Of a stretch of DNA of 64,000 bases, positions 6,299 to 48,486 are shown piece after piece; position 1 is the first letter of the stretch, and every line of letters starts with the position of its first letter. The position numbers were made by a program, and so were the translations under genes. This DNA is from Bacteroidota bacterium. Its GTDB lineage: Bacteria > Bacteroidota > Bacteroidia > Chitinophagales > Chitinophagaceae. The notes under the pieces were generated by a model. It saw nothing but the letters and a program-made list of their open reading frames with translations. It was not told the origin of the DNA and searched no databases. The stretch lies in assembly GCA_030706605.1 (NCBI GenBank), contig JAUZOE010000013.1, positions 21,853 to 85,852 of the forward strand, written 5' to 3'.

Positions 6299-6612
6299 TG
6301 ATGGAAACTGAAATACTAAAAGAAAAGGTGATTGCGTGTTTGCAAACTATTTATGATCCTGAAATTCCGGTAAGTATTTACGAATTAGGATTAATATATG
6401 AAATAGATATTTTGCCTATCAATAATGTTCAGATTGTAATGACTTTGACAGCTCCGAGTTGTCCGTCTGCGCAGGAGATACCGATTGAAGTAGATCAGAA
6501 AGTGAGAATGATAGAAGGGGTTAATGATGTTCATGTTTCTGTAGTGTGGGATCCGCCATGGGACAGAAGTATGATGAGTGAAGCAGCTATGTTAGAATTA
6601 GGATTTATGTAA
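6298..6612 (+). CDS. SufT / MIP18-like (DUF59) protein
   Basis: YDPEIPVSIYELGLIYEI and TAPSCPSAQEIP typical of the DUF59 family. Confidence 0.88.
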   Translation: MMETEILKEKVIACLQTIYDPEIPVSIYELGLIYEIDILPINNVQIVMTLTAPSCPSAQEIPIEVDQKVRMIEGVNDVHVSVVWDPPWDRSMMSEAAMLELGFM

Positions 6613-6724
6613 TTATTCTCCCCGAAATAGGATGAAGGGACTTAGGGGATTGCTCGTTAAATTTTAAATATTTTTTTTATCATATAAAATACTGCCTTGT
6701 TTCCTTTTGGGTTAGAGGCCAATT

Positions 6725-7195
6725 ATGAAAATAACAGCACAAGAAGAATATGGTTTACGAATACTTTTACGCATTGCAAAATGTAATGAAGAAGAGAGCA
6801 TGAGTATCCAGGCACTGAGTGTGGCTGAAGGTATTTCTCCGGCTTATGTGGCCAAACTGACAAGAATACTTCGTAAAGCAGGGTATATCAATAGTACGCC
6901 GGGAAATATAGGCGGATACATCCTTGCAAAATCTGCCAGGGAAATTAATATTAATCATGTTTTGAAAACTCTTGGTGGTAAGCTATTCAGCAAAGAATTT
7001 TGCAATGACTATTCAGGTGCAATGAAATTATGCACTAATTCAGTAGATTGTTCGACACGTTCTTTATGGCAAATGATTCAATTTACTGTAGACCAATTAT
7101 TAGATAAAGTTTCTTTATACGACCTCTCTGCCTCCGAAGAAAAATCCGGCAAATTATTAAATAATATCTTGGAACAGATACCAACTTCTTTGTAG
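6725..7195 (+). CDS. Rrf2 family transcriptional regulator
   Basis: MKITAQEEYGLRILLRIAK start; three Cys spaced CX9CX5C; last gene after suf. Confidence 0.88.
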   Translation: MKITAQEEYGLRILLRIAKCNEEESMSIQALSVAEGISPAYVAKLTRILRKAGYINSTPGNIGGYILAKSAREININHVLKTLGGKLFSKEFCNDYSGAMKLCTNSVDCSTRSLWQMIQFTVDQLLDKVSLYDLSASEEKSGKLLNNILEQIPTSL

Positions 7196-7427
7196 TTATA
7201 ATCTAATTGTGTGAAGCTTTTCAAGGACAGAGATTAATATAATTGGTCAAACATTGTAGTTCCTATCTTATATCGCGATCACTTCATTTCAATATAAATA
7301 TTGATTTGTCTAGCCCTCAATTAATGGGATTCAATAAATTCTATCATCTTTGTTTTAATTTCATAGATTAGCATTATGGATCAGAAATTTCAGGCTTAGA
7401 GGGGGCAAAAATAACTATACTATAATT

Positions 7428-9629
7428 ATGAAATCAATTTGTACACTTCTTTTATTATGTGCTTTTAGAACTATTGATGCGCAAAATATTGCCCAGCAAA
7501 AACTGGAACAATTACCGCTCTATCCTTCCAGTGAAATAAAAGCTGCGCAAGGCGACTGGTTGTTGAATAATGCACATGCTATTACAAAAATCTACAGATC
7601 GGGAAATCGCAAAGATCTGATCATTACCAATGGATTAATATGCCGCCGGTTCAGGCTGCAACCCTATATGGCATGCTTTGGATTCCAAAACCTTATTACC
7701 GGAAAAGAAATGCTTCGTGCCATAGAGCCGGAAGCAGAGGTGGAAATCAATGGCAAATCATATAACATCGGAGGTGCGAAAGGACAATTTGAAAGAGGCT
7801 ATCTTCAATATGACTGGCTGGATCAATTCAAAAACGACCCACAGGCTTTTCAACTGGTTGATTTTTCAATTCGAAACATACAACCTCGTTTGAAATGGAA
7901 ACCAGCGAGGTGGAATACCAATCAACAATGGTCGCCTGCAGGGAAAGAAATAGATTTTACATTCCGGCTCGCTGGTAATGAATTGGAGGGTGTAACCATA
8001 GATGTTATATATGAAATGTATGATAATATGCCTCTCATGTCCAAAAGTATGGTAGTGCATAATGCAGGCAATAATTCAATCACTATTAATACTTTTAAAA
8101 GTGAGAAGCTGGCAATGGTAGAAGAAAGCTCAGGTGTTAACAAAGATGGGTTTCTTCCTTCTCCTCACATCTGCATACAAAGTGATTATGCTTTTGGCGG
8201 TAGTTCTTATGCCGATGCCAATCATACTACTTGTTGGCTTCGTGACTCATTATTTACTTCGCAAGTAAATTATAATCTTCAGACTCATTGCCTGCTTGAA
8301 AGTAAGCCACCTATTGGCCCCGATTATGTTGTACAACCCGGACAAAATTTTGAGACATTTCATACATACGAATTAATGTATGATAGCTATGATAGGGAAC
8401 GTTGCGGCCTGGCTGAACGGAAAATGTACCGGGTTCTTGCGCCCTGGGCCACTGAAAACCCTATGTTTCTTCACCTCACTACTACCAATCCGGAAAAGGT
8501 AAAAACGGCTATTGATCAGTGCGCGGAAGTTGGTTTTGAAATGGTAATCCTTAGTTTTGGCAGTGGACTGAATATGGAAGATACTAGTGATGCCAATATT
8601 AAAAAATTCAAAGAATTAGTGAACTATTCCCATTCTAAAGGGATTGAAATGGGAGGTTATTCTTTGTTTTCGAGTCGGAGCATTGATGTGGTGGATGATG
8701 TGATCAACCCTGAAACCGGTAAGCCTGGTGGTACTATTTTTGGTAATGCTCCTTGTTTAGGTAGTAATTGGGGGCTAGGCTATCTTCAAAAGTTGAAAAC
8801 TTTTATTACCAAAACCGGATTTACTATACTGGAAAATGATGGACCTTACCCTGGTGATATCTGTGCTTCTGTTTCACACCCGGGGCATACTGGTATTAAT
8901 GATTCACAATGGAACCAATGGAATTTAGAAACTTCTTTTTACGGATGGCTTCGTGAAAGAGATGTGTACCTGAATGCACCTGACTGGTATTTTCTGAATG
9001 GTTCCAGTAAAATCGCTATCGGGTATCGCGAAGATAACTGGTCATTACCGAGAGAGCGACAGATTATGCTTGGGCGGCAAAATATTTATGATGGTACTTG
9101 GGATAAAACACCGGGTATGAGTTGGACTTTTGTTCCTTTGACTCAATATCATGGAGGAGGCGCAGCAGCAACTATAGAACCTTTGCATGAGCACCTGGAT
9201 GCGTATGAGGCCCACTTGGTTCAGAATTTCGGGAGTGGTGTGCAGGCGTGCTACCGTGGTCCCAGGTTATATGACACGCCGGCTACAGAAATATTGGTAA
9301 AAAAGGAGGTGGCATGGTATAAAAAATACAGAAATATCCTGAACGCAGATATCATTCATATCCGTCGTCCCGATGGAAGAGATTATGATGCAATAATGCA
9401 TGCAGATCCTAAAGGAAAAGAAAAAGCCTTGGTAATGGTCTATAATCCTCTTGACAGTAGTATTATCCGGAACATAAAATTGCCATTATATTATACCGGA
9501 TTAACCACTGTGGCCAGGATAAAAGAAAAAGAAAATAAATCGCAATTGTATCATTTAAACAGAGATTATTCTGTAGATGTTTCGGTGACAATAAAACCGC
9601 ATTCTTATACCTGGCTGGTAATTGAATAA
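7428..9629 (+). CDS. Secreted alpha-galactosidase-like glycoside hydrolase
   Basis: Signal peptide, then N-terminal beta domain and TIM-barrel-like segments (FTILENDGPYPGDICASVSHPGHTG); family assigned by recollection. Confidence 0.5.
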   Translation: MKSICTLLLLCAFRTIDAQNIAQQKLEQLPLYPSSEIKAAQGDWLLNNAHAITKIYRSGNRKDLIITNGLICRRFRLQPYMACFGFQNLITGKEMLRAIEPEAEVEINGKSYNIGGAKGQFERGYLQYDWLDQFKNDPQAFQLVDFSIRNIQPRLKWKPARWNTNQQWSPAGKEIDFTFRLAGNELEGVTIDVIYEMYDNMPLMSKSMVVHNAGNNSITINTFKSEKLAMVEESSGVNKDGFLPSPHICIQSDYAFGGSSYADANHTTCWLRDSLFTSQVNYNLQTHCLLESKPPIGPDYVVQPGQNFETFHTYELMYDSYDRERCGLAERKMYRVLAPWATENPMFLHLTTTNPEKVKTAIDQCAEVGFEMVILSFGSGLNMEDTSDANIKKFKELVNYSHSKGIEMGGYSLFSSRSIDVVDDVINPETGKPGGTIFGNAPCLGSNWGLGYLQKLKTFITKTGFTILENDGPYPGDICASVSHPGHTGINDSQWNQWNLETSFYGWLRERDVYLNAPDWYFLNGSSKIAIGYREDNWSLPRERQIMLGRQNIYDGTWDKTPGMSWTFVPLTQYHGGGAAATIEPLHEHLDAYEAHLVQNFGSGVQACYRGPRLYDTPATEILVKKEVAWYKKYRNILNADIIHIRRPDGRDYDAIMHADPKGKEKALVMVYNPLDSSIIRNIKLPLYYTGLTTVARIKEKENKSQLYHLNRDYSVDVSVTIKPHSYTWLVIE

Positions 9630-9842
9630 GGGTGATTTTTAATGAATGATTATTGTCGTTAAGCGGAGACATCTTTATCATCATTACCAATGAGGGCTTT
9701 ATTGTAAACTTCCCCAAAGTTCGACCATTTAAAAGTTGAATTTGATTTTTAGGCTATAATGTAAAATGGATTCCTGAATCTTTAAGACATTGATTATGTA
9801 AAGCAAATGATAGTTCACTTAGAAGAAATATATGAGGGCAGT

Positions 9843-9881
9843 GTTCATCCCAATTTAATAGACTTAAAATATTGGATGAAC
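9843..9881 (-). terminator. Stem-loop 3' of the sigma-54 response regulator gene
   Basis: GTTCATCCCAAT ... ATTGGATGAAC inverted repeat ending 5 bp from the stop codon; weak T tract. Confidence 0.35.
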
Positions 9882-9885
9882 TAAC

Positions 9886-11289
9886 TTACATAGATTGATA
9901 AATTTTTATTTTATTATAAAGCGTTTTACGATCAATGTTTAATATTTCTGCGGCTTTGGTTTTATTAAAATTAACCTCTTTCAATACATTCATGATAGTC
10001 TCATATTCAGCCCTGGCTGCGGCATCCTTAAGATCTACAGGAGCTCCCGACAACTTTTTATGCCCATTCAATTGAGTTTCAGGGTGGAGAAGTGATTGTG
10101 TTATTTCCCAGGGAAGCACTTTAGAATTGATCAACCCTGATTGAGTGAGTAAAACTGCACGACGTACTACATTCCTGAATTCTCTCAAATTGCCAGGCCA
10201 TGAATAATTCATAAACATTTCTTCCACCTCTTCTTCATACCCTTCAATATTTTTTTGCAATTCCTCATTGGTCTTGTCAAGAAAAAATTGAGCAAATTGA
10301 GGTATATCTCCTTTTCTTTCGCGCAGTGCGGGCAGGTTAATTGAGAATTCATTAAATCTATGATAGAGATCTTCCCTGAAATTACCTTTTTGATAAGCTT
10401 CCTGTAGGTTTTCGTTAGAGGCCACAATAATTCTTATATCTACGTCCATTTCTTTATTGCCACCCACTCTTTTAAATTTTCTTTCCTGTATTACTCTTAA
10501 TAAGGATGCCTGCACGTCTCTGGCCAGGTTAGAAACTTCATCTAAAAATAAGGTCCCCCCATTGGCTAATTCAAAATGACCTTCTTTATCATTTACGGCT
10601 CCTGTAAAAGCACCTTTAACATGACCAAAAAGCTCGCTGCCAGAAAGTTCTTTAGATAAGGTTCCACAATCCATTGCTACAAAAGGCTTTCCTTTTCGTT
10701 TGCTGGATTCATGGATTGTTTTAGCTATCACTTCCTTTCCTGTGCCGCTCTCTCCATAAAGGATTACACTGTAATTGGTAGGAGCTACTATTTCTATTTG
10801 TTTATATACTTTCGCTGTTTCACCATCCTGCCCGATTAAATATTCTTTATTGGCAGAAATAATATAAGGCTTCTTATTTTTAGGAGGATTTGGTGTAATA
10901 GTAGAAGAGGTAAATGATTTTTCAGAAGGAGCAGCAAATGCTTTTTCTATAACATTAATTACCTCATCAGGAATAAGAGGTTTGGTTATGTAATCAAAAG
11001 CGCCAAGTTTGATAACATCAACAGCCGTCTTGATATCTGAATATCCGGTAATAATTATTACTATTGTTTTTGGTTTGACTTCTTTAATTTTTAGTAGAAC
11101 ATCTTTCCCATCTTTGTCTCCAAGGCGGAAATCACAAAGTACAATATCAAAATGTTCTTCATTAAATTTAGCAAGGCCTTTTGCACCATTGTGAGCTACC
11201 TCTGTTGTGAATCCTTTTTTGTCGAGAAAACGGTTTAACAAAACACACATATCATAGTCATCATCAATAATCAGTATTTTTTTCTTCAT
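9886..11289 (-). CDS. Sigma-54 dependent NtrC-family response regulator
   Basis: Receiver domain, AAA+ with GESGTGKE and GAFTGA, C-terminal Fis-type HTH. Confidence 0.95.
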   Translation of the reverse strand: MKKKILIIDDDYDMCVLLNRFLDKKGFTTEVAHNGAKGLAKFNEEHFDIVLCDFRLGDKDGKDVLLKIKEVKPKTIVIIITGYSDIKTAVDVIKLGAFDYITKPLIPDEVINVIEKAFAAPSEKSFTSSTITPNPPKNKKPYIISANKEYLIGQDGETAKVYKQIEIVAPTNYSVILYGESGTGKEVIAKTIHESSKRKGKPFVAMDCGTLSKELSGSELFGHVKGAFTGAVNDKEGHFELANGGTLFLDEVSNLARDVQASLLRVIQERKFKRVGGNKEMDVDIRIIVASNENLQEAYQKGNFREDLYHRFNEFSINLPALRERKGDIPQFAQFFLDKTNEELQKNIEGYEEEVEEMFMNYSWPGNLREFRNVVRRAVLLTQSGLINSKVLPWEITQSLLHPETQLNGHKKLSGAPVDLKDAAARAEYETIMNVLKEVNFNKTKAAEILNIDRKTLYNKIKIYQSM

Positions 11290-11323
11290 AGCTTTAAAAA
11301 AGGTCTTTTTGGATTTAGCAAAG

Positions 11324-12238
11324 TTAACTTAAATCTTCGTTTTTTAATTGGGGAGAACCTACAGTTTTTTCTTCAGTCTTAATCCATTCAGCATATTCTT
11401 TCGGTAAAATTTTCCCCCCGTAAAGTTTAGCATGTACTTTAGTGAATTCTGCACCAAGGTACAGAATAATTGAACTATAATAAACCCAAACCATGAAAAT
11501 GATTATGGAACCTGCAGCTCCATAAAGAGATGTAAAATTGCTTTGACCTAAGTAGAAACCAATAGCAAATTTCCCAATGGTGAAAAATATGGCGGTAATA
11601 AATCCCCCAAATAACACATCTTTCCATTTAATTTTAGCATCAGGTAATATTTTAAACATTAATGAAAATAAAACATTAGCGATTATGAAAGAAAGAATTG
11701 CGTCTGTAATTTGAATGAAATAAATACTATATTCCTGAATATAATTGCCAATAAATTTTCCAAAAGCAGAAACCAACGCGTTTAGCATAAGTGAAACAAT
11801 CATAATAAATCCAATACTTAATATCAAAGAAAATGAAAGTAACCTGGTAATAATTAATTGCCACCACACTTTTTTAGGTTTTACCCTTAACCCCCAAATT
11901 TTATTTATGGAGTCCTGTATTTCTCCAAATATACTGGTAGCACCAATTAATAAAATAACGATTCCTATTACAGATGCAAAAAAATTATTTCCCGCGACGT
12001 GAATATTTTTTATGGTTTCTTGAATTTGAAGCGCTGCCTTACTTCCTAATAGATTGTTTAACTGATCGTAAATTTCTCCTTGCATGGCTTCTTTGCCAAA
12101 AAAGAAACCCGATAAGGTGGTTAAAATTATTACAAAAGGAGCTATAGAAAAAACGGTATAGTAAGCAAGCGAAGCACTGTATTTAAAAATATTATCGGCT
12201 GAAAATTCCTTTAAAACTGTTTTTGTATATGATAACAT
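11324..12238 (-). CDS. YihY/BrkB family inner membrane protein
   Basis: Multi-TM protein with SASLAYYTVFSIAPFVIILTTL N-terminus characteristic of YihY/BrkB. Confidence 0.88.
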   Translation of the reverse strand: MLSYTKTVLKEFSADNIFKYSASLAYYTVFSIAPFVIILTTLSGFFFGKEAMQGEIYDQLNNLLGSKAALQIQETIKNIHVAGNNFFASVIGIVILLIGATSIFGEIQDSINKIWGLRVKPKKVWWQLIITRLLSFSLILSIGFIMIVSLMLNALVSAFGKFIGNYIQEYSIYFIQITDAILSFIIANVLFSLMFKILPDAKIKWKDVLFGGFITAIFFTIGKFAIGFYLGQSNFTSLYGAAGSIIIFMVWVYYSSIILYLGAEFTKVHAKLYGGKILPKEYAEWIKTEEKTVGSPQLKNEDLS

Positions 12239-12355
12239 ATCACGAAATAAATTTTAATGTTATTATAATAAATTTTCAAGAAAATATTCAAATAAAGTTA
12301 AAGCAAAGCAAAGACAGGTCAAAAGTAAGATCAGTAAAAAGAAAATCATTTTGCT

Positions 12356-13759
12356 TTAACTAATCCGCAAGCTTATAGTAAAAGTAGTACCAGATCCGAG
12401 CTCACTCTCCGCAGAAATACTACCATCATGGCCTAAAATAATATTTTGTGAATTAGCCAATCCTAATCCATTGCCTTTTTCTTTAGTAGTAAAATAGGGT
12501 TCAAATAATCTACTGACTTCCGATTTTGTCATACCCTTTCCGGTATCAGAAATTTTTATTATGCACATGCTATTTTTACGGGATGTTGAAATCTGCAGAA
12601 TTCCATTTTCATCCATCGCTTCAATAGCATTTACAATTATATTTAAAAAAGCAATTTTAATTTTTGATACATCTACGGAAATTGGGCAAATATCTTCATC
12701 ATAATTTTTCTCCACTTTGATATGATTCAATTCTATTCTGTCTCTTGCCAGTTCAAGGCTCTGGTCAAGTAAATCATTAACAGATGCCTCTGAAAAACTG
12801 AGTTCAGCCACTCTTGTTGTATTGAGTAAATCACTTACCAATTGATTAATTCTATCAGAATTTCTAGAAATCATATTAAATAACATAGCTGATGATTCTG
12901 TCAAATCTTGTTCGGAACGAAGATGTTCGATAGAAAGGTTAATATTGGTTAAAGGGTTGCGTACCTCATGAGCAATGGTGCGTGCTATTCTCCCGGTAAC
13001 TGCATATTTTTCAAGATTTCTCAATTCTATTAATTCCGTGTTCAATTCTGCAAGTTGATCCACCCTGTTTTGTAATTGTTCCCTGAATTCTGCAGCTTTT
13101 TTATCTGCTTCTGTTTTAGCTTTATTTTCTTTATTGTAAACTAAAATGGAAGAAAAAGTAAGCAAAATAGCTACTATAAGTGAAATGATGTTCAATATTT
13201 TGATGAGAACTGAATATTCAGAAACACTTTTGGAACGAACACTCCATAATTTTTTTTCCGCATCACGGATCTTGCTAACATACTTTTCAATATTTTTTGT
13301 TGCCTCTATTCCAAGGCCATTCCCTTCTAATAATCCAGGAGTAATTGTTTGCGCTGCGGAAAAGTCCGAAAGAATTTTTTCGGTACCTGAAAAATTTTGA
13401 TCTATCAAATCATGAAGTGTATCAAGATTGTTCTGGTTTTCGTTGTTTTCAATTGTTAAAGAATCGAGAGTACTAAAAGTATCATAGGTGTCTGTTTTAC
13501 TTTGTTCAAATTCATCAATGAATTGAGGATTTTTAGTAATAACATAACCCCGAAAAGCAGACTCCCCTTTTTTTATGTACCTAAGTATATTATCAAGATT
13601 ATGAATAATCTCGTTAGTATGATTGATCCAGTGGTCCTGTGTTATAATTTTTTGTGTGGAAATATAAGTGAGAATATAAGAAATAAGCAAAAGGAAAAAA
13701 GCAGTAAGAAACCCTATCCTGGTACGATTCGCGATTTTTTTTAAAAAATTTCTGACCAT
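12356..13759 (-). CDS. Sensor histidine kinase with CHASE3-like sensor
   Basis: Two TM helices around a CHASE3-like region (KKGESAFRGYVITKNPQF), then HisKA (AHEVRNPL) and HATPase. Confidence 0.9.
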   Translation of the reverse strand: MVRNFLKKIANRTRIGFLTAFFLLLISYILTYISTQKIITQDHWINHTNEIIHNLDNILRYIKKGESAFRGYVITKNPQFIDEFEQSKTDTYDTFSTLDSLTIENNENQNNLDTLHDLIDQNFSGTEKILSDFSAAQTITPGLLEGNGLGIEATKNIEKYVSKIRDAEKKLWSVRSKSVSEYSVLIKILNIISLIVAILLTFSSILVYNKENKAKTEADKKAAEFREQLQNRVDQLAELNTELIELRNLEKYAVTGRIARTIAHEVRNPLTNINLSIEHLRSEQDLTESSAMLFNMISRNSDRINQLVSDLLNTTRVAELSFSEASVNDLLDQSLELARDRIELNHIKVEKNYDEDICPISVDVSKIKIAFLNIIVNAIEAMDENGILQISTSRKNSMCIIKISDTGKGMTKSEVSRLFEPYFTTKEKGNGLGLANSQNIILGHDGSISAESELGSGTTFTISLRIS

Positions 13760-13875
13760 AAAAATCCGGGGGTTTATTTTTAAATATACAAAGATTACTG
13801 ACCCGAATATTAGTTTATAATATTTTAACCTATTTTTTAATCACTTGGTTCAAATAGGAAAAAAATTTAAAAACT

Positions 13876-13883
13876 TATCTTTG
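13876..13883 (+). promoter_or_regulatory. Candidate -7 element (TATCTTTG) of the AraC-family gene
   Basis: TAnnTTTG consensus 12 bp before the ATG; no clear -33 found. Confidence 0.35.
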
Positions 13884-13894
13884 CTTGATTATTT

Positions 13895-14830
13895 ATGGAA
13901 ACTATTCAACAGTTACTGTCCTTAGAACTAAATCATCCTGTAATGCAGCATGAAATGGAATTAGTGCAACACAAAACGCAACGGATTCCAGGGTCGGTAC
14001 ATTATGTGATTAACCGCTATCGAAAAATACCCAACGTAATTTTTGAAGATACCGGGATGATGATATATAATTACCACGAGGATAATAAAAAAACTAAAAC
14101 CCTGGAATTAGTCTTTTGCATTTCAGGCAATAAATACTGTAAAGAAAAAGCAGAGGAATGTAGTTTTTGCAAACATTCACAATCACATCATTGCGAAGAA
14201 TTAATTGAAACGCTGGACATAGCCAGTTTCCGATATAGCAAAGAACATCTTACTCAATTTGTAAAAGGAATAAAAACTTCCTCTTTTTCAGAAGATGTTT
14301 TAAATTTCAAACATACCAGTTCTTTTTCTAAAACTTTGCCTTTGTGCAGCAGAACAAGAAATGCTCTGGATGCATTATTAAATCATAATTATTCAGAAAG
14401 CCTGGAAAACATATTTATTAATGCCCAAACACAAATGCTGCTTTTATACAGCATGGAATGTATGGCAGGCGATGGAGAAGATTCTTTCTCTTGCAAGTTC
14501 CTGGCTAACGAAGCCGACCGTAAAAAAATATCTCTTGCCCGTGAAATTTTATTACAACAAATAGGAGAGCCTCTTACTATAAAAGAATTAAGCCGCAAGG
14601 TAGCCATCAATGAATGTTATTTGAAGAAAGGGTTTAAGGAAATGTATGGTACCACCATTTTTGATTTTTTTCAAAGCCAGCGCATGGAGCATGCAAAATA
14701 TTTATTGTATGAAAAAGAATTAACTGTGACAGATGTTTCGGCATTGTTGGGTTATTCTTCTATTTCCCACTTCTCGACTGCATTCAAAAAACACACCGGG
14801 ATAAAGCCTTGTGAGCTACTATTTCGCTGA
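13895..14830 (+). CDS. AraC family transcriptional regulator
   Basis: C-terminal AraC HTH (LTVTDVSALLGYSSISHFSTAFKKHTGIKP); Cys-rich segment in N-terminal half. Confidence 0.9.
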   Translation: METIQQLLSLELNHPVMQHEMELVQHKTQRIPGSVHYVINRYRKIPNVIFEDTGMMIYNYHEDNKKTKTLELVFCISGNKYCKEKAEECSFCKHSQSHHCEELIETLDIASFRYSKEHLTQFVKGIKTSSFSEDVLNFKHTSSFSKTLPLCSRTRNALDALLNHNYSESLENIFINAQTQMLLLYSMECMAGDGEDSFSCKFLANEADRKKISLAREILLQQIGEPLTIKELSRKVAINECYLKKGFKEMYGTTIFDFFQSQRMEHAKYLLYEKELTVTDVSALLGYSSISHFSTAFKKHTGIKPCELLFR

Positions 14831-14940
14831 ATAATATTCCTGTTACTTTAGAATTTTCCCGATTTCGGAAACGAGATTTCCCGATTTTGTAAATCATTTG
14901 AAAGCAATGATATTTCATTTGCAGAAATAAATCTGTAATA

Positions 14941-17115
14941 ATGAATAATCAAAGTATCATAGTGGCAATCATAGCCATATTGAGCTCCATGACTACAATG
15001 GCTCAACAAAATGACTCAGTAAAAACTTTAAAAGAAATAATTGTAACAGGGTACAAAACTGTAAATGGCGTCGGCCACCTGTTAGAATCAGAAGATGGCA
15101 CTATTTACGCCGGTAAAAAAACTGAAGTTATTGTTGTTGACAGCCTGGATGCCAATAAAGCCATCAATAACACCCGCCAAATTTTGGGAAGAATACCCGG
15201 ATTAAATATTGTTGAAACAGAAAGCAGTGGCTTTACTGCAAATGGAATTGCAACACGCGGACTAAACCCGACTCAAAGTATTGAGATGAACACCCGCCAA
15301 AACGGTTACAACATCAGCGCGGATGTATATGGATATAATGAAGCGTATTACATTCCACCAATGGAAGCGGTGAAAAGAATTGAGCTGGTAAGGGGTGCGG
15401 CGTCACTGCAATTCGGTGCACAGTTTGGAGGATTGGTAAATTATATCCTGGAAGATGCTCCGAAAAACAAACCTTTTCAATTTATTACTTCGCAAACAGG
15501 TGGAAGTTTTGGAATGTTCAATTCATTTAATTCAATTGGAGGCAATTATAAAAAATGGAGTTACTATGGATTTTTTCAATATAGAAATATGGATGGCTAC
15601 AGGCCAAACAGTCAACAGTGGCAACTTTCAGGATTTGGTAAAGTGAAATACACTCCTTCAGATAAAATGAATATAGACCTTGAATATTCCTTGCTTCGCA
15701 ACAAAATTCAAATGCCCGGAGGATTATCTGACAGCCTTTTTATCGCAAATCCAAAAGCCTCTATTCGCGCAAGAAACTGGCTTAAAAGTCCCTGGAATAT
15801 TGTAAGTAATGCTATTAACATCAATCCAAATGAGAATACCACCATCAGTTTAAAAACAACATATCTTTTCAGCAATCGCTCATTGGTATGGAGAAATGAA
15901 GACGGCGGTCCCGCAGCGCCTGACACGATTGATCCTTCTACGAATCAATTTGTACCCCGGGAAGTGGAAGACGAGGATATGCATAGTATAGCAACAGAGG
16001 CGAGGGTTTCAACTAATTATAATCTTGGAAAAAATCAATCCACGTTAGCAGCAGGCGTGAGGCTTTCCTATGCCTCGTTTAAAAGATTAGAAGGCGGTGA
16101 AGGAACCACAGGAAGCGACTTTGATTTATCAATTACAGGAGATTGGGAAACCAATATGGATTTTAGCACAACGAATATTGCTCCTTTTGTTGAGAATATT
16201 TTTCGCATAGGAAAAAGATTTACAGTAACGCCAGGTATTCGGTTCGAATACCTGAAAAGCACTGCCCGCGGTTATTCTATTGATGACGATTATAAGATCA
16301 CTACAGACAAGACTAAAAACCGTGATTTTCTTTTAACCGGTATTGGTATAGAATATAAAACAAAAACCAACACAGCATTTTACGGGAACATAAGCCAGGC
16401 TTATCGACCGATTGATTACAACCAGCAGCAACCGTTTGGTGTGGCTGCTAAAATTGATCCGAATTTAAAAGATGCTTTTGGCTTTAATTCTGATCTTGGT
16501 TTTAGAACGATTGTCAGCAATTATTTGAATATAGATGCCAGCTTGTTTTACCTCGCTTATAACAACCGGATTGGAGATGTGGTTAAGATGGATTCCACCA
16601 CAGGTAAATCGTATGCCTATCGCACCAATATTGCAAACAGTGTTCATAAAGGGTTGGAAGCGTATATTGAATTTAATATCCTGAAATATTTAAACAAGCA
16701 TTCAAAACAAGGATTAAGTATTTTTAATTCATTTTCCTTTATTGATGCAAAATATACCAGTGGTGAATTTAAAGGAAATCGTGTTGAGGCTGCTCCAAAG
16801 GTAATAGAAAGAGCGGGCCTTGTCTATTCCAATCGAAATTTTTCATCCACTTTTCAATTCAATTATACCGGCGATTCTTTTGGCGATGCAACAAATGTGA
16901 AAATAAGTGATAACCCTGTTGCCGGCTATATTCCCGCTTATACTGTGCTTGACCTGAGCGCTACCTATAAGATCAATAATTATTCAATAAAATGCGGCGT
17001 AAATAATCTTACTGATAAATCCTATTTCACAAGAAGAACGGATGAATACCCCGGCCCCGGAATAATTCCTGCGGTGGGTAGAAGTTTTTATGCCGGATTC
17101 ACTGCTAAATTTTAA
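14941..17115 (+). CDS. TonB-dependent outer membrane receptor (FecA-like)
   Basis: Signal peptide, plug domain, beta-barrel, C-terminal aromatic FTAKF. Confidence 0.92.
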   Translation: MNNQSIIVAIIAILSSMTTMAQQNDSVKTLKEIIVTGYKTVNGVGHLLESEDGTIYAGKKTEVIVVDSLDANKAINNTRQILGRIPGLNIVETESSGFTANGIATRGLNPTQSIEMNTRQNGYNISADVYGYNEAYYIPPMEAVKRIELVRGAASLQFGAQFGGLVNYILEDAPKNKPFQFITSQTGGSFGMFNSFNSIGGNYKKWSYYGFFQYRNMDGYRPNSQQWQLSGFGKVKYTPSDKMNIDLEYSLLRNKIQMPGGLSDSLFIANPKASIRARNWLKSPWNIVSNAININPNENTTISLKTTYLFSNRSLVWRNEDGGPAAPDTIDPSTNQFVPREVEDEDMHSIATEARVSTNYNLGKNQSTLAAGVRLSYASFKRLEGGEGTTGSDFDLSITGDWETNMDFSTTNIAPFVENIFRIGKRFTVTPGIRFEYLKSTARGYSIDDDYKITTDKTKNRDFLLTGIGIEYKTKTNTAFYGNISQAYRPIDYNQQQPFGVAAKIDPNLKDAFGFNSDLGFRTIVSNYLNIDASLFYLAYNNRIGDVVKMDSTTGKSYAYRTNIANSVHKGLEAYIEFNILKYLNKHSKQGLSIFNSFSFIDAKYTSGEFKGNRVEAAPKVIERAGLVYSNRNFSSTFQFNYTGDSFGDATNVKISDNPVAGYIPAYTVLDLSATYKINNYSIKCGVNNLTDKSYFTRRTDEYPGPGIIPAVGRSFYAGFTAKF

Positions 17116-44410: not shown

Positions 44411-45067
44411 CTAATCAATCAGGGAATTTTTCATAGCGAAAAACACGAGGCCTACGGAGTTTTTTACTCCAAATCGCTCCATTAGCCTATCCTTAATGGC
44501 TTCAACAGTTCGAGGACTTATTTCCATTTTTTGCGCAATCTCATGTGCGGTATATTCCATGCACACCAGTGAAAGTACTTCTTTTTCTCTATCGCTTACT
44601 ACTATTTCACTATTGAGATTTGGGTTAAATTTTTGTTTGGCGTAATTCTTTTTTATCAGTACACGGTTTACGAAATTATTAAGATAGAAGCCGGTTTTCA
44701 TTACATCCATAATAGCCTGTTTTATCTCTGCAGGTTCCGTACTTTTAAGTAAATATCCATTTGCTCCACTATCCATGAGATGACCTACAAAACGTTCATC
44801 CTCAAACATGGTTAATATAAGGATCCTCACAGCAGGGAAATGTTTATTGAGATATTTTGTGGTTTCTATACCGTCTTTCACTGGCATTTTTAGGTCCATC
44901 AAAACTATATCAGGTTGTTCTATTTCAATTCCTTTTATGAGCTCTTCACCATTTTCAGCTTCTAATATGACTCTAATATTATGGTAAGCTTTTAAAGAAA
45001 GAATTACTCCTTTCCTGAATATTTTATGGTCATCAGCTATGGCAATATTGATTATCTCGGGGATCAT
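44411..45067 (-). CDS. NarL/LuxR-type response regulator
   Basis: Receiver (ADDHKIFRKGV, IVLMDLKMP) plus LuxR HTH (SDREKEVLSLVCMEYTAHEIAQKMEISPRTVEAIKDRLM). Confidence 0.95.
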   Translation of the reverse strand: MIPEIINIAIADDHKIFRKGVILSLKAYHNIRVILEAENGEELIKGIEIEQPDIVLMDLKMPVKDGIETTKYLNKHFPAVRILILTMFEDERFVGHLMDSGANGYLLKSTEPAEIKQAIMDVMKTGFYLNNFVNRVLIKKNYAKQKFNPNLNSEIVVSDREKEVLSLVCMEYTAHEIAQKMEISPRTVEAIKDRLMERFGVKNSVGLVFFAMKNSLID

Positions 45068-45124
45068 ATTTTATTCTTAACACGTAAAAGATATAAAGAA
45101 AAAGTATAAAAATAAAATATTTAT

Positions 45125-45949
45125 TTAAACAAGTTCTCTGGGTATTTCAATGGTAGATTTATAATATGTACGAGTCCCGTCAATCTCAAATGAAATGGAA
45201 CCTTTTAAAATTCTCATGCGGCTTTGGATGTTTTTTAATCCCAGGCCAATAGAGTTGCTTTCTAATCTATCGAAATCTTCCTGAAGTATTCCTTTGCCAT
45301 CATGGTGTATGCGGAAATATACTAAATTGCCCTGGGCGTTTTGAGTCAGGTGAATAAATCCTGCGTTACTGTGTTTAATGATGTTAGTAACTAACTCCTG
45401 TATGATACGGAAGATTAATAATTCCTGTTCTTCATTCAGTCTTTGGCGGTTATCATGAAATCGGACACTGGCATTAATCACACCGGAACCATTTATTTTG
45501 TCAAATAAATCTTTTACTGCAGCTTCTAATCCAAAATTCTTTAAAGTTGGAGGCATTAGACTATGTGATATATTCCTGATCAATTGAATTGTATCGTCTA
45601 TAATTTGTTTGGCACTAAAAATTGATTGAAGTTGAACTGATGGCTCCTGGTGGATCAAATTTTCATTTAAATAAAGTCTGGCAGTGGCTAAAAGTGGTCC
45701 GGCATCATCATGCAAATCGGCTGCAATACGTTGTCTTTCATCTTCCTGGGAGCGAATTGATGCACGCAATAACATTTGTTGTCGCTCCTCTTCCATTTTC
45801 TGTATTTGCTTATTAAATCTAATGACTCTTCTTTGATGGAATACTAATAGCGAAATAAGTGTAATAGCCATGATAAACATACCTAAAGTACCCAAGACTA
45901 GCATACTTGAAATGCCAGATGAATTAGAAGATAACTGTATAAAAAACAT
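45125..45949 (-). CDS. NarL-type sensor histidine kinase with one N-terminal TM and no visible sensor domain
   Basis: HisKA_3-type EDERQRIAADLHDDAGPLLATARLYL, degenerate HATPase motifs. Confidence 0.92.
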   Translation of the reverse strand: MFFIQLSSNSSGISSMLVLGTLGMFIMAITLISLLVFHQRRVIRFNKQIQKMEEERQQMLLRASIRSQEDERQRIAADLHDDAGPLLATARLYLNENLIHQEPSVQLQSIFSAKQIIDDTIQLIRNISHSLMPPTLKNFGLEAAVKDLFDKINGSGVINASVRFHDNRQRLNEEQELLIFRIIQELVTNIIKHSNAGFIHLTQNAQGNLVYFRIHHDGKGILQEDFDRLESNSIGLGLKNIQSRMRILKGSISFEIDGTRTYYKSTIEIPRELV

Positions 45950-45963
45950 TTAATTTATGGAAG

Positions 45964-46695
45964 TTAATTTTTATTATTATAAAAAAAAATGTCATCATCC
46001 AGTTCAGGAAGTGATGGTGTTGGTTGTTTATCAATAGTATGATTGATTTTCATTGTCATGGCTACACATAGCAATATATTCTTGAGAATATTGAAAGAAA
46101 TATTAATTATAAAATAAAGTTTTTGAAAATAAACATTTTCTCTCATACTATCAGCGATAAGGTAAAGAAAAAAAGTTCCTGAAAAATAAATTAAAAATGT
46201 AATAACAACCCAGAAATTAAAAGTAGAGTAGATCAATAAGCTATTTGATCCTTTGATTTGTGAGAATAGAAAATATATGCAAAGAAGTATAATAATGATT
46301 GATTCTATCCCTGAAGCAAATGAATCAAATGCTTTCCATTTATTAAAATAGATAAAATCTATAGAAGCGAATAAAATATATGAAATGCCAATATAAAAGG
46401 TGATCTTTTTTTCTATTTGTTTACGAAAAATCAGGTAAAAGAAGTATCCTAGAAAGGAAAATTCTACAATATTATAAAGGGCAAATAATATTGTAGTATT
46501 AGTGGATCTGGTGATTTGAAAATAAAAACTTAACCCTTCATTTACTATGCAGTAAAGGATATAAAATAAAATTACCTTTAGCTCTTTTTCTTTATTATTC
46601 CTTTTGAATAACAGAAAAAAAATTAAAGGTAATAGGGTTGAAAAAATTCCTGTATATAGTAATAACTTTAAAATAGTAATTATTTTTTGAGTCAA
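45964..46695 (-). CDS. Seven-TM membrane protein of unknown function
   Basis: 243 aa with about seven hydrophobic helices and a polar C-tail; 14 bp upstream of the kinase gene. Confidence 0.8.
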   Translation of the reverse strand: MTQKIITILKLLLYTGIFSTLLPLIFFLLFKRNNKEKELKVILFYILYCIVNEGLSFYFQITRSTNTTILFALYNIVEFSFLGYFFYLIFRKQIEKKITFYIGISYILFASIDFIYFNKWKAFDSFASGIESIIIILLCIYFLFSQIKGSNSLLIYSTFNFWVVITFLIYFSGTFFLYLIADSMRENVYFQKLYFIINISFNILKNILLCVAMTMKINHTIDKQPTPSLPELDDDIFFYNNKN

Positions 46696-46734
46696 ATATA
46701 ACTACATATTTTAAATTTTATGAACAAATAAAAT

Positions 46735-47094
46735 TTATCCGCCATTAATTACTGTCCAGTCAATTACAATTTTATCAGCAACAATACCATTTTCTTTAAC
46801 GATATCGCCAGTGTTTGTAACTACAGAGTAAGTAAGAATATCTTTACCTTCTGCATCTACGCCGGTGTATACTAAATGTTCTTCATTTTCAGAAAGACAT
46901 TTGCGGAAATTAATTCCTACACAACCAGGTTGATTTAAAATTTGATCAATAATGTTCCGGCCGATGTAATAACCAGGTGTTGCATCAGGATTTGCTTCTC
47001 TAAAAGCGTTCACCAGTTTGGTACCTTCTGCCAATCCAATGTCTTCGCCAACTTCAGCAAGACTCTTGGTTTCTAAGAGTGCGTTTTGTGTCAT
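46735..47094 (-). CDS. Small soluble protein of unknown function
   Basis: 119 aa, no signal peptide, IGRNIIDQILNQPGCVGINFRKC core, C-terminal GG; upstream of 7-TM gene. Confidence 0.75.
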   Translation of the reverse strand: MTQNALLETKSLAEVGEDIGLAEGTKLVNAFREANPDATPGYYIGRNIIDQILNQPGCVGINFRKCLSENEEHLVYTGVDAEGKDILTYSVVTNTGDIVKENGIVADKIVIDWTVINGG

Positions 47095-47193
47095 GATTGT
47101 AAGTTTTTTTTGTTTTGTAAAGAGGTTTTAATATGTAATCTGAATGCTAACTTCTTAAAAAACTAATTCCGGTGCAATAGCTATTTTTTTAAG

Positions 47194-47343
47194 TTATATA
47201 CCCTATTTTTGCTTAAACTCTTGCTGGATGAATGTTTCATCGATTTGCGTAAGTAAATTAACGTATCAAAAAAGGGTATATCTACGATGTAAATATAGTA
47301 AAATTACTATTCAAAAAAAAGGTATATTACGAGGGTAAATATA
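47194..47343. repeat. Three copies of an AAAAA(A/T)GGGTATAT-type motif, one inverted and two direct
   Basis: TTATATACCCTATTTTTGC (47194-47212); TATCAAAAAAGGGTATATCTACGATGTAAATATA (47264-47297); TATTCAAAAAAAAGGTATATTACGAGGGTAAATATA (47308-47343). Confidence 0.6.
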
Positions 47344-47494
47344 CGATTGTTAAAAAATAAAGAAGTAGTAGAAGAAATTGCGTGGGTTGGTAACTATAGT
47401 GGAGAATTGATAAAAATATTGATTGACACCAGTTAACGCAGAAGTATTGGGTTTTCACGATGTTGTTCTTGAATTGTGAATTTGGATATTAACC

Positions 47495-47555
47495 TGTGGG
47501 CCAAGCTAGACAATAATGATATTAATTAATAATGATATTAATTTTTGTGGGCCAA
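47495..47555. repeat. Perfect 16-bp tandem duplication flanked by 10-bp direct repeats
   Basis: TGTGGGCCAA at 47495-47504 and 47546-47555; AATAATGATATTAATT at 47512-47527 and 47528-47543. Confidence 0.85.
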
Positions 47556-47652
47556 TGCCAATAAATGATTCAAAAATAATTATATTTAGTTTGCTTTCCT
47601 ATAGCAGGAATAATCTTTTGCTAATGTGATTAATACTTTTATTTAGATAAAA

Positions 47653-47694
47653 TACGCATTTTAATTTCGTGTTTATACGAAAAAAAAATGCGTA
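47653..47694. promoter_or_regulatory. Symmetric 42-nt hairpin or dyad
   Basis: TACGCATTTT-AA-TTTCGT-GTTTAT-ACGAAA-AA-AAAATGCGTA. Confidence 0.75.
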
Positions 47695-47820
47695 AATTTA
47701 CGTGAGTAATAATTCTAATAAATTAGAATGTTAATCGTAAATATTATTAAATATACATAATAGATTTATGAAAATTACGTTATAAATTAAAATTTTACAC
47801 CCCCTAACAGTTACAACCCG

Positions 47821-48486
47821 ATGTCTTTATCTACCGTTATTAAATTTGCAATTGCTGATGACCATAAAATTTTCAGAGATGGCATTAAAATGGCACTTAG
47901 CACCAAAGAAGATTTAAAAATGATATGGGAAGCTGAGGATGGGAGAGATCTGATTCATAAAATGACCATAAAAAAACCAGATATTTTATTAATGGACATA
48001 AGGATGCCGGAAATTGATGGTATCAATGCAATAGAGATGTTGCGAAAAGAGTATGATGACCTTAAGATTATTGTACTTTCAATGTATGATGATCAGAAGA
48101 TGATAAGTAAAATGATGGAGATGGGTGCAAATGCGTATTTAACCAAGACAACTGATCCTGGTGAAATTTATGAAGCAATACTTACCTGCATGAATGAAGA
48201 TTTTTATTTTAATCAATTAGTTAATAATGCCGTAATGGGTAAGTTAATGCAAAAGAAAAATGTACGTAAACATTATGGCAACCATATCCCAATTACTTTT
48301 AGTGAAAAAGAATTAAAAATTTTGCAATTGCTTGGAGAGGATAAAACTACTGATGAAATTTCAAAAATAATTTTCCTGAGCCCAAGAACAATTGAAACCA
48401 TTCGTCAGAACATGAAAAATAAGGTAGGTGCTAAAACGATTGGCGGCCTGCTTATGTATGGGATGAGAAATAAGATGATTGAATAA
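47821..48486 (+). CDS. NarL/LuxR-type response regulator
   Basis: Receiver (ADDHKIFRDGI, ILLMDIRMP) plus LuxR HTH (TTDEISKIIFLSPRTIETIRQNM). Confidence 0.94.
   Translation: MSLSTVIKFAIADDHKIFRDGIKMALSTKEDLKMIWEAEDGRDLIHKMTIKKPDILLMDIRMPEIDGINAIEMLRKEYDDLKIIVLSMYDDQKMISKMMEMGANAYLTKTTDPGEIYEAILTCMNEDFYFNQLVNNAVMGKLMQKKNVRKHYGNHIPITFSEKELKILQLLGEDKTTDEISKIIFLSPRTIETIRQNMKNKVGAKTIGGLLMYGMRNKMIE

Follow-up and report, generated by a model that had tools for sequence, protein, structure and literature searches.

Bacteroidota encode many kinases in which no sensor domain is visible. From where does such a kinase receive its signal? The question is posed by a locus in a 64,000-nucleotide stretch of contig JAUZOE010000013.1 (assembly GCA_030706605.1, Chitinophagaceae), hereafter the window. 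Four closely packed genes on the minus strand, read from open reading frame (ORF) coordinates and family searches, form a cassette: S, a small protein of 119 aa (46735-47094); T, a protein of 243 aa with seven transmembrane (TM) segments and a TTG start, the presumed sensor or receptor subunit (45964-46695); K, a histidine kinase of 274 aa with HisKA_3 and HATPase_c domains and a single TM segment but without a sensor domain (45125-45949); and R, a NarL/FixJ-type response regulator of 218 aa (44411-45067). Across a spacer (47095-47820) the cassette faces R2, a divergent NarL-type response regulator of 221 aa on the plus strand (47821-48486). The gene order S-T-K-R is conserved across the Bacteroidota, well beyond the family Chitinophagaceae to which a preliminary description of the locus had confined itself. 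Further, in Chitinophagaceae the same predicted operator precedes the cassette and a multi-copy family of small RNAs (sRNAs), a connection which that description had missed.

The gaps within the minus-strand cluster amount to 57 bp between R and K, 14 bp between K and T, and 39 bp between T and S. A scan of the minus strand between S, T, K and R returned no terminator-like site. An identity of 37% over 219 aa (E 3e-57) marks R and R2 as paralogues. The preliminary description had reported a cluster with gaps of 14-57 bp, a paralogous LuxR-type regulator facing it and a repeat-rich spacer. All five genes are where it had placed them, the gaps agree, the relationship of R2 to R holds, and the spacer repeats are present; the meaningful ones among them are GTA-N4-TAC palindromes.

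How widely is the cassette conserved? Of 150 Chitinophagaceae genomes covered by a protein search, 35 gave a match to S and 96 a match to T, and the two kinds of match lie side by side. In 28 neighbourhoods which contain both, S is followed by T, and K and R come next in nearly all of those with a long enough contig. Scanning 84,980 species genomes yielded 79 S loci with a name attached; almost without exception they come from Chitinophagaceae or from bins of other Bacteroidota. A divergent LuxR-type gene lies upstream of S in 68 of 77 S loci. In 73 S loci the sequence extends far enough downstream for the order to be read, and of these 63 show the complete S-T-K-R and 69 show S-T-K; at the S-less Chitinophagaceae loci examined, 13 of 13 T seeds read T-K-R. 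The preliminary description had named a lack of conserved proximity between these two genes and NarL-type kinases as grounds for refutation; the proximity is conserved, and its proposal passes this check. The similar small-protein neighbours in other Chitinophagaceae which it had mentioned do exist.

Beyond this family, the profiles of S and T hit neighbouring genes in further families and classes of the Bacteroidota, and S-T-K-R recurs there. Most loci read across the phylum in which T lacks an S match have a small ORF upstream of T. In other lineages small proteins which resemble S, and which include lipoproteins, are encoded ahead of T-K-R; a few proteins upstream of T stay unrelated to S by profile comparison. 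A search of S-less loci for a hidden small peptide found no consistent small ORF. Variants of the cassette are also seen. Tandem T genes precede K in L246, L247 and L254, and a second T copy follows R in loci of the Niastella/Pseudoflavitalea type (L063-L070, L115-L136). Directly after T, L243:7068-9122 carries an ORF of 684 aa which matches the regulator profile and suggests a fused kinase-regulator cassette. PADLOC matched no anti-phage defence system. We found no published description of the cassette in the open-access literature; one elsewhere is possible.

The spacer between S and R2 holds a predicted operator array, a point which had escaped the preliminary description. Repeat and palindrome scans resolve its repeats into GTA-N4-TAC palindromes with the consensus ATCGTAAATTTACGAT. 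Three of them are GTATATCTAC (47276-47285), GTAAAATTAC (47298-47307, within ATAGTAAAATTACTAT) and GTAAATATAC (47335-47344); a fourth, GTAAATTTAC (47692-47701), is located on the R2 side. The array is the sole GTA-N4-TAC cluster of the window. In 84 distinct spacers we counted 193 such palindromes, compared with 12.4 (standard deviation 3.1) expected from dinucleotide shuffles, although the spacers share descent and the palindromes therefore did not all arise independently. When spacings from 0 to 8 are compared, N4 alone is strongly enriched; N2 is weaker (43). The palindromes cluster 100-250 bp upstream of S. A genome-wide scan of the window's own genome with one strict paired pattern finds paired operators in three places only: the S/R2 spacer, C27:6638 (ahead of an sRNA array, with an sRNA at 6777), and one site on C71.

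An operator array before S and beside a divergent regulator gene is the usual sign of autoregulation. Which regulator would bind it? In other families the palindrome is present upstream of some cassettes without a divergent regulator (L237, L238, L239, L241, L250), an observation that makes R a candidate binder, whether or not the only one. In two of these loci, L237 and L239 from another Bacteroidota family, the gene immediately before S encodes a multi-TM protein of 146-153 aa and is itself preceded by two operator palindromes.

Word enrichment in the spacers revealed another element, 115-130 nt long and oriented toward S/T, in many Chitinophagaceae cassettes including S-less ones. It is predicted to be an sRNA of ~115 nt, a mostly single-stranded loop closed by one long stem (GAAGUUGAYUG...CARUCAACUUC) which is followed by a T-run. 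Most of the stem pairing exists by construction since the stem arms served as the search pattern; columns outside the pattern still pair, with one two-sided change (UA 19 / CG 19). The Bacteroidota -7 box TANNTTTG occurs at most 30 nt upstream of 97 of 100 distinct elements, versus 1.4% in shuffled sequence. In the loop UCCAA is repeated, 2.16 times per element versus 0.21. Rfam returned no match for the sRNA at the gathering score, nor permissively.

A covariance model detects a copy in 51 of the 150 Chitinophagaceae genomes, with nine copies in the window's own genome and ten in another (G046). Three of the nine are on the contig of the window, ~20 kb before it; the others form arrays with copies ~410 bp apart. 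In the own genome (G000) tandem arrays lie between unrelated genes at C27:6777-7710, C5:1-2133, C1:1-523 and C28:27404 (L325-L328), and many of the array sRNAs are preceded at a distance of ~105 bp by a GTA-N4-TAC site. At L338:1721-4355 a copy not associated with an S-T-K-R cassette has two genes for LuxR-type regulators in its vicinity. The sole match within the window, at 44454-44588 inside R, was dismissed as chance (16 bits, E 0.37).

The connection between operator and sRNA emerges when the sRNA copies are searched with a matrix for which only spacer sites outside sRNA promoters, 183 in number, served as the training set. Among 43 copies not associated with a cassette, 95% have a matrix site of at least 8 bits within 250 bp upstream, clustered at 60-140 bp. 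As controls, windows drawn at random from these loci gave 13%, and regions upstream of long ORFs 11%. Copies of the sRNA sit inside many cassette spacers, and for copies within cassettes the figure is 51% versus 6% in shuffled sequence. Across the 150 family genomes, the sRNA is found in 48 of 67 genomes with T at E<=1e-8 and in 3 of 83 others (Fisher p ~6e-20, uncorrected for phylogeny).

What do the components themselves tell? K has both domains of its class above the curated cut-offs, HisKA_3 with E 7.5e-7 and 30.1 bits (cut-off 24) and HATPase_c with E 2.6e-9 and 37.9 bits (cut-off 26.4). The regulator that adjoins it carries a receiver and a GerE domain, as befits a NarL/HisKA_3 pair; Response_reg and GerE were identified in R and R2 alike. 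By inspection the H-box (ADLHDD) and N-box (ELVTNIIKHS) of K are intact, as are the aspartates and lysines of the receivers. The N-terminus of K consists of a single hydrophobic segment, and no further domain scores above threshold. The absence of an evident sensor domain, reported in the preliminary description, thus stands.

T matches no Pfam or NCBIfam family, and its relatives likewise have no consistent match. The AlphaFold2 (AF2) model shows seven long helices with a predicted local distance difference test (pLDDT) score of 90.9 and a predicted TM-score (pTM) of 0.86. Conserved positions are E78 in TM3 and F161-W162 in TM6. When the model is compared with the PDB by Foldseek, the top 50 entries are nearly all G-protein-coupled receptors (GPCRs), with TM-scores of about 0.4-0.5, root mean square deviations of 6-8 A and a best E-value of 0.026, which is not significant. 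Since GPCRs also dominate the 7-TM entries, the likeness of fold is a hint only. A relationship to VanZ/lipocone proteins, an idea taken from a paper, was dropped, given that VanZ did not appear in the family search and that GPCRs are the best folds. The predicted cytoplasmic tail of T proteins often ends in a short acidic motif (PFLDxD, LPELDDD), possibly a docking peptide.

S, too, matches no family in Pfam or NCBIfam, and its relatives are without a consistent match. An alignment of 80 sequences delineates a conserved core of ~108 aa with invariant G16, L53, Q55-P56, C58, G60, V75 and G78; the tail is the most variable part. The AF2 model (pLDDT 80.7) consists of two helices and a beta meander, and no relative of it was found in the PDB. 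S of the window has no signal peptide, and this applies to most S proteins of Chitinophagaceae. By inspection, S has a lipobox in L258, L262, L266, L269, L272, L273, L274 and L275 and an N-terminal TM segment in L243, L244, L246 and L248. Many S proteins outside Chitinophagaceae end in CPPxC; the ending is kept in some members of the family (e.g., L074, L152, L159) and is missing from S of the window. Profile comparison links the S profile of the window to CPPxC-tailed S of other families with 99.7%, and the CPPxC-tailed set in turn to small proteins encoded upstream of T elsewhere: to L271 with 98.5%, to L272 with 96%, to L264 with 95% and to the lipoprotein set with 83.5%. Two S domains per chain together with Cys-Pro-rich motifs are present at L090:5697-6530 and L250:5881-6633.

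How could these parts operate together? On the evidence of gene order and predicted sites, we consider it probable that T together with S provides the input for the sensor-less K, much as the preliminary description had proposed for T and/or S, and that R and/or R2 act on operators which control the cassette and the sRNAs. T would sense a membrane or extracellular cue, with S as a ligand-like or modulating subunit, and would switch K by direct contact within the membrane. K would then phosphorylate R, perhaps also R2. The phosphorylated regulator would bind the palindromes, by which the cassette may be autoregulated and the multi-copy sRNAs switched on or off. The sRNAs in turn may act in trans, either by protein titration or by pairing with mRNA. 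One may go further and regard T as the first of a phylum-wide class of GPCR-like bacterial receptors, with S as a dedicated protein ligand or co-receptor, a separate kinase, and a regulator which in Chitinophagaceae drives multi-copy sRNAs. Bacteroidota would then have assembled, from parts of different origin, an equivalent of Gac/Rsm or of the sRNA circuits of quorum sensing. This extended version is speculative, and we regard it as unlikely.

Several observations weigh against the proposal of T and S as input to K with operators and sRNAs as output. Some loci have no R beside K. L146 (Chitinophaga sp. CF118, 6321-15579) contains four orphan S genes, two of them adjacent, with no T-K-R nearby. 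The location of S varies by lineage (lipoprotein, N-terminal TM segment, no signal), which is awkward for one shared mechanism. Outside Chitinophagaceae, an operator of at least 10 bits precedes 18% of the cassettes versus 4% in shuffled sequence. The covariance model finds the sRNA in Chitinophagaceae only, with 0 of 16 genomes from other families of the order, and no copy above threshold in the window's own spacer. Within the family, no sRNA was detected in 19 of the genomes whose T reaches E<=1e-8. The co-occurrence statistic, apart from its missing correction for phylogeny, uses a T cut-off which was chosen afterwards; three cut-offs were compared and all were strong.

A rather different explanation is that the cassette is an ordinary two-component system and that operator and sRNAs belong to another LuxR-type regulator which also controls the locus. 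Chitinophagaceae encode many LuxR-type regulators. The nine sRNA copies of the own genome, none above threshold in the cassette spacer, agree with such a view, as do three genomes which have the sRNA and no detected T. Yet the operator array is concentrated before S, beside the divergent regulator gene, and the operator is also seen ahead of some S-T-K-R operons where no divergent regulator exists (L237, L238, L239, L241). Moreover, many cassette spacers do contain sRNA copies, and sRNA and T co-occur as strongly as 48/67 versus 3/83. We consider another regulator as the owner of operator and sRNAs rather doubtful.

The succession of small protein, membrane protein, kinase and regulator is also that of agr-like sets, in which S would be the precursor of a signal, released by secretion or processing, T would process or export it, and K would be the receptor. 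A conserved S core with a most variable tail would fit, and several lineages appear to export S by way of a lipobox or an N-terminal TM segment. However, K has no multi-TM receptor domain, and the positions which stand out in T, E78 and F161-W162 alone, do not include a conserved Cys/His pair such as a protease should have. Further, the conserved part of S is modelled as a folded domain of ~108 aa and not as a leader, and a signal peptide is mostly absent from S of Chitinophagaceae. We consider an agr-like function improbable. Finally, seven helices, GPCRs as the best Foldseek folds and, in Chitinophagaceae, E78 in TM3 with K205 in TM7, reminiscent of the counter-ion/lysine pair of opsins, might suggest a bacterial rhodopsin or a receptor of the 7TMR-DISM type. 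K205 is a lysine in 51 of 96 sequences of the Chitinophagaceae-based alignment and in 3 of 47 T proteins elsewhere; because it is not conserved, T has no retinal lysine. The family search gave no match to PF07695, a profile comparison (hhalign) with 7TMR-DISM_7TM gave a probability of 1.6%, and the Foldseek E-values are not significant. Either identity of T is most improbable.

We return to T and S as the probable input to K, with operators and sRNAs as output. In two unnamed protein families which travel with a sensor-less kinase across a phylum, the missing sensor has concrete candidates. A multi-copy sRNA that has its operator in common with the cassette suggests a global post-transcriptional circuit in a phylum where few are known, and it offers a ready read-out by way of an sRNA-promoter reporter.

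How does the cassette compare with known systems? BceS is an intramembrane-sensing kinase with little input domain which is controlled by an adjacently encoded membrane partner, BceAB. An input-poor kinase next to a gene for a membrane partner is common to both; here, however, a 7-TM protein from a new family takes the place of the transporter, and the small protein S is additional. With 7TMR-DISM (PF07695) T shares the presumed role of a bacterial 7-TM signalling protein, yet T stands alone without a fused output domain and the profile comparison is negative. FopS/GibS of Bacteroides are, like the sRNA described here, a multi-copy Bacteroidota family with its own promoters. FopS consists of a 5' single-stranded stretch and a terminator hairpin, and its transcriptional regulator is unknown (PMC11697453). 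The present sRNA, in contrast, has a closing stem which joins the 5' and 3' ends, and it has no Rfam match. In Vibrio, LuxO is a regulator of the NtrC/sigma54 type, and the Qrr RNAs pair with mRNA via Hfq. There, as proposed here, a signal cascade ends in several copies of one sRNA family, although no parts are homologous. The comparison with Gac/Rsm (GacS/GacA - RsmX/Y/Z) extends further: both have a LuxR/NarL-type regulator and a palindrome with a GTAA...TTAC core, and in both this palindrome precedes short sRNAs which exist in several copies and repeat a motif. The Gac-box reads TGTAAGN6CTTACA (PMC11837529); the box described here has N4 between GTA and TAC. The sRNAs of Gac/Rsm carry several GGA motifs which bind CsrA/RsmA. 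The present sRNA repeats UCCAA, GGA is by inspection of the listed elements not its repeated motif, and its sequence is unrelated; in place of a GacS-like hybrid kinase the cassette has a separate 7-TM protein and a small protein. Lacking both a GacS-type kinase and the repeat of GGA, the cassette with its sRNAs is not classed here as a member of Gac/Rsm. By analogy, the likeness is one of circuit logic only.

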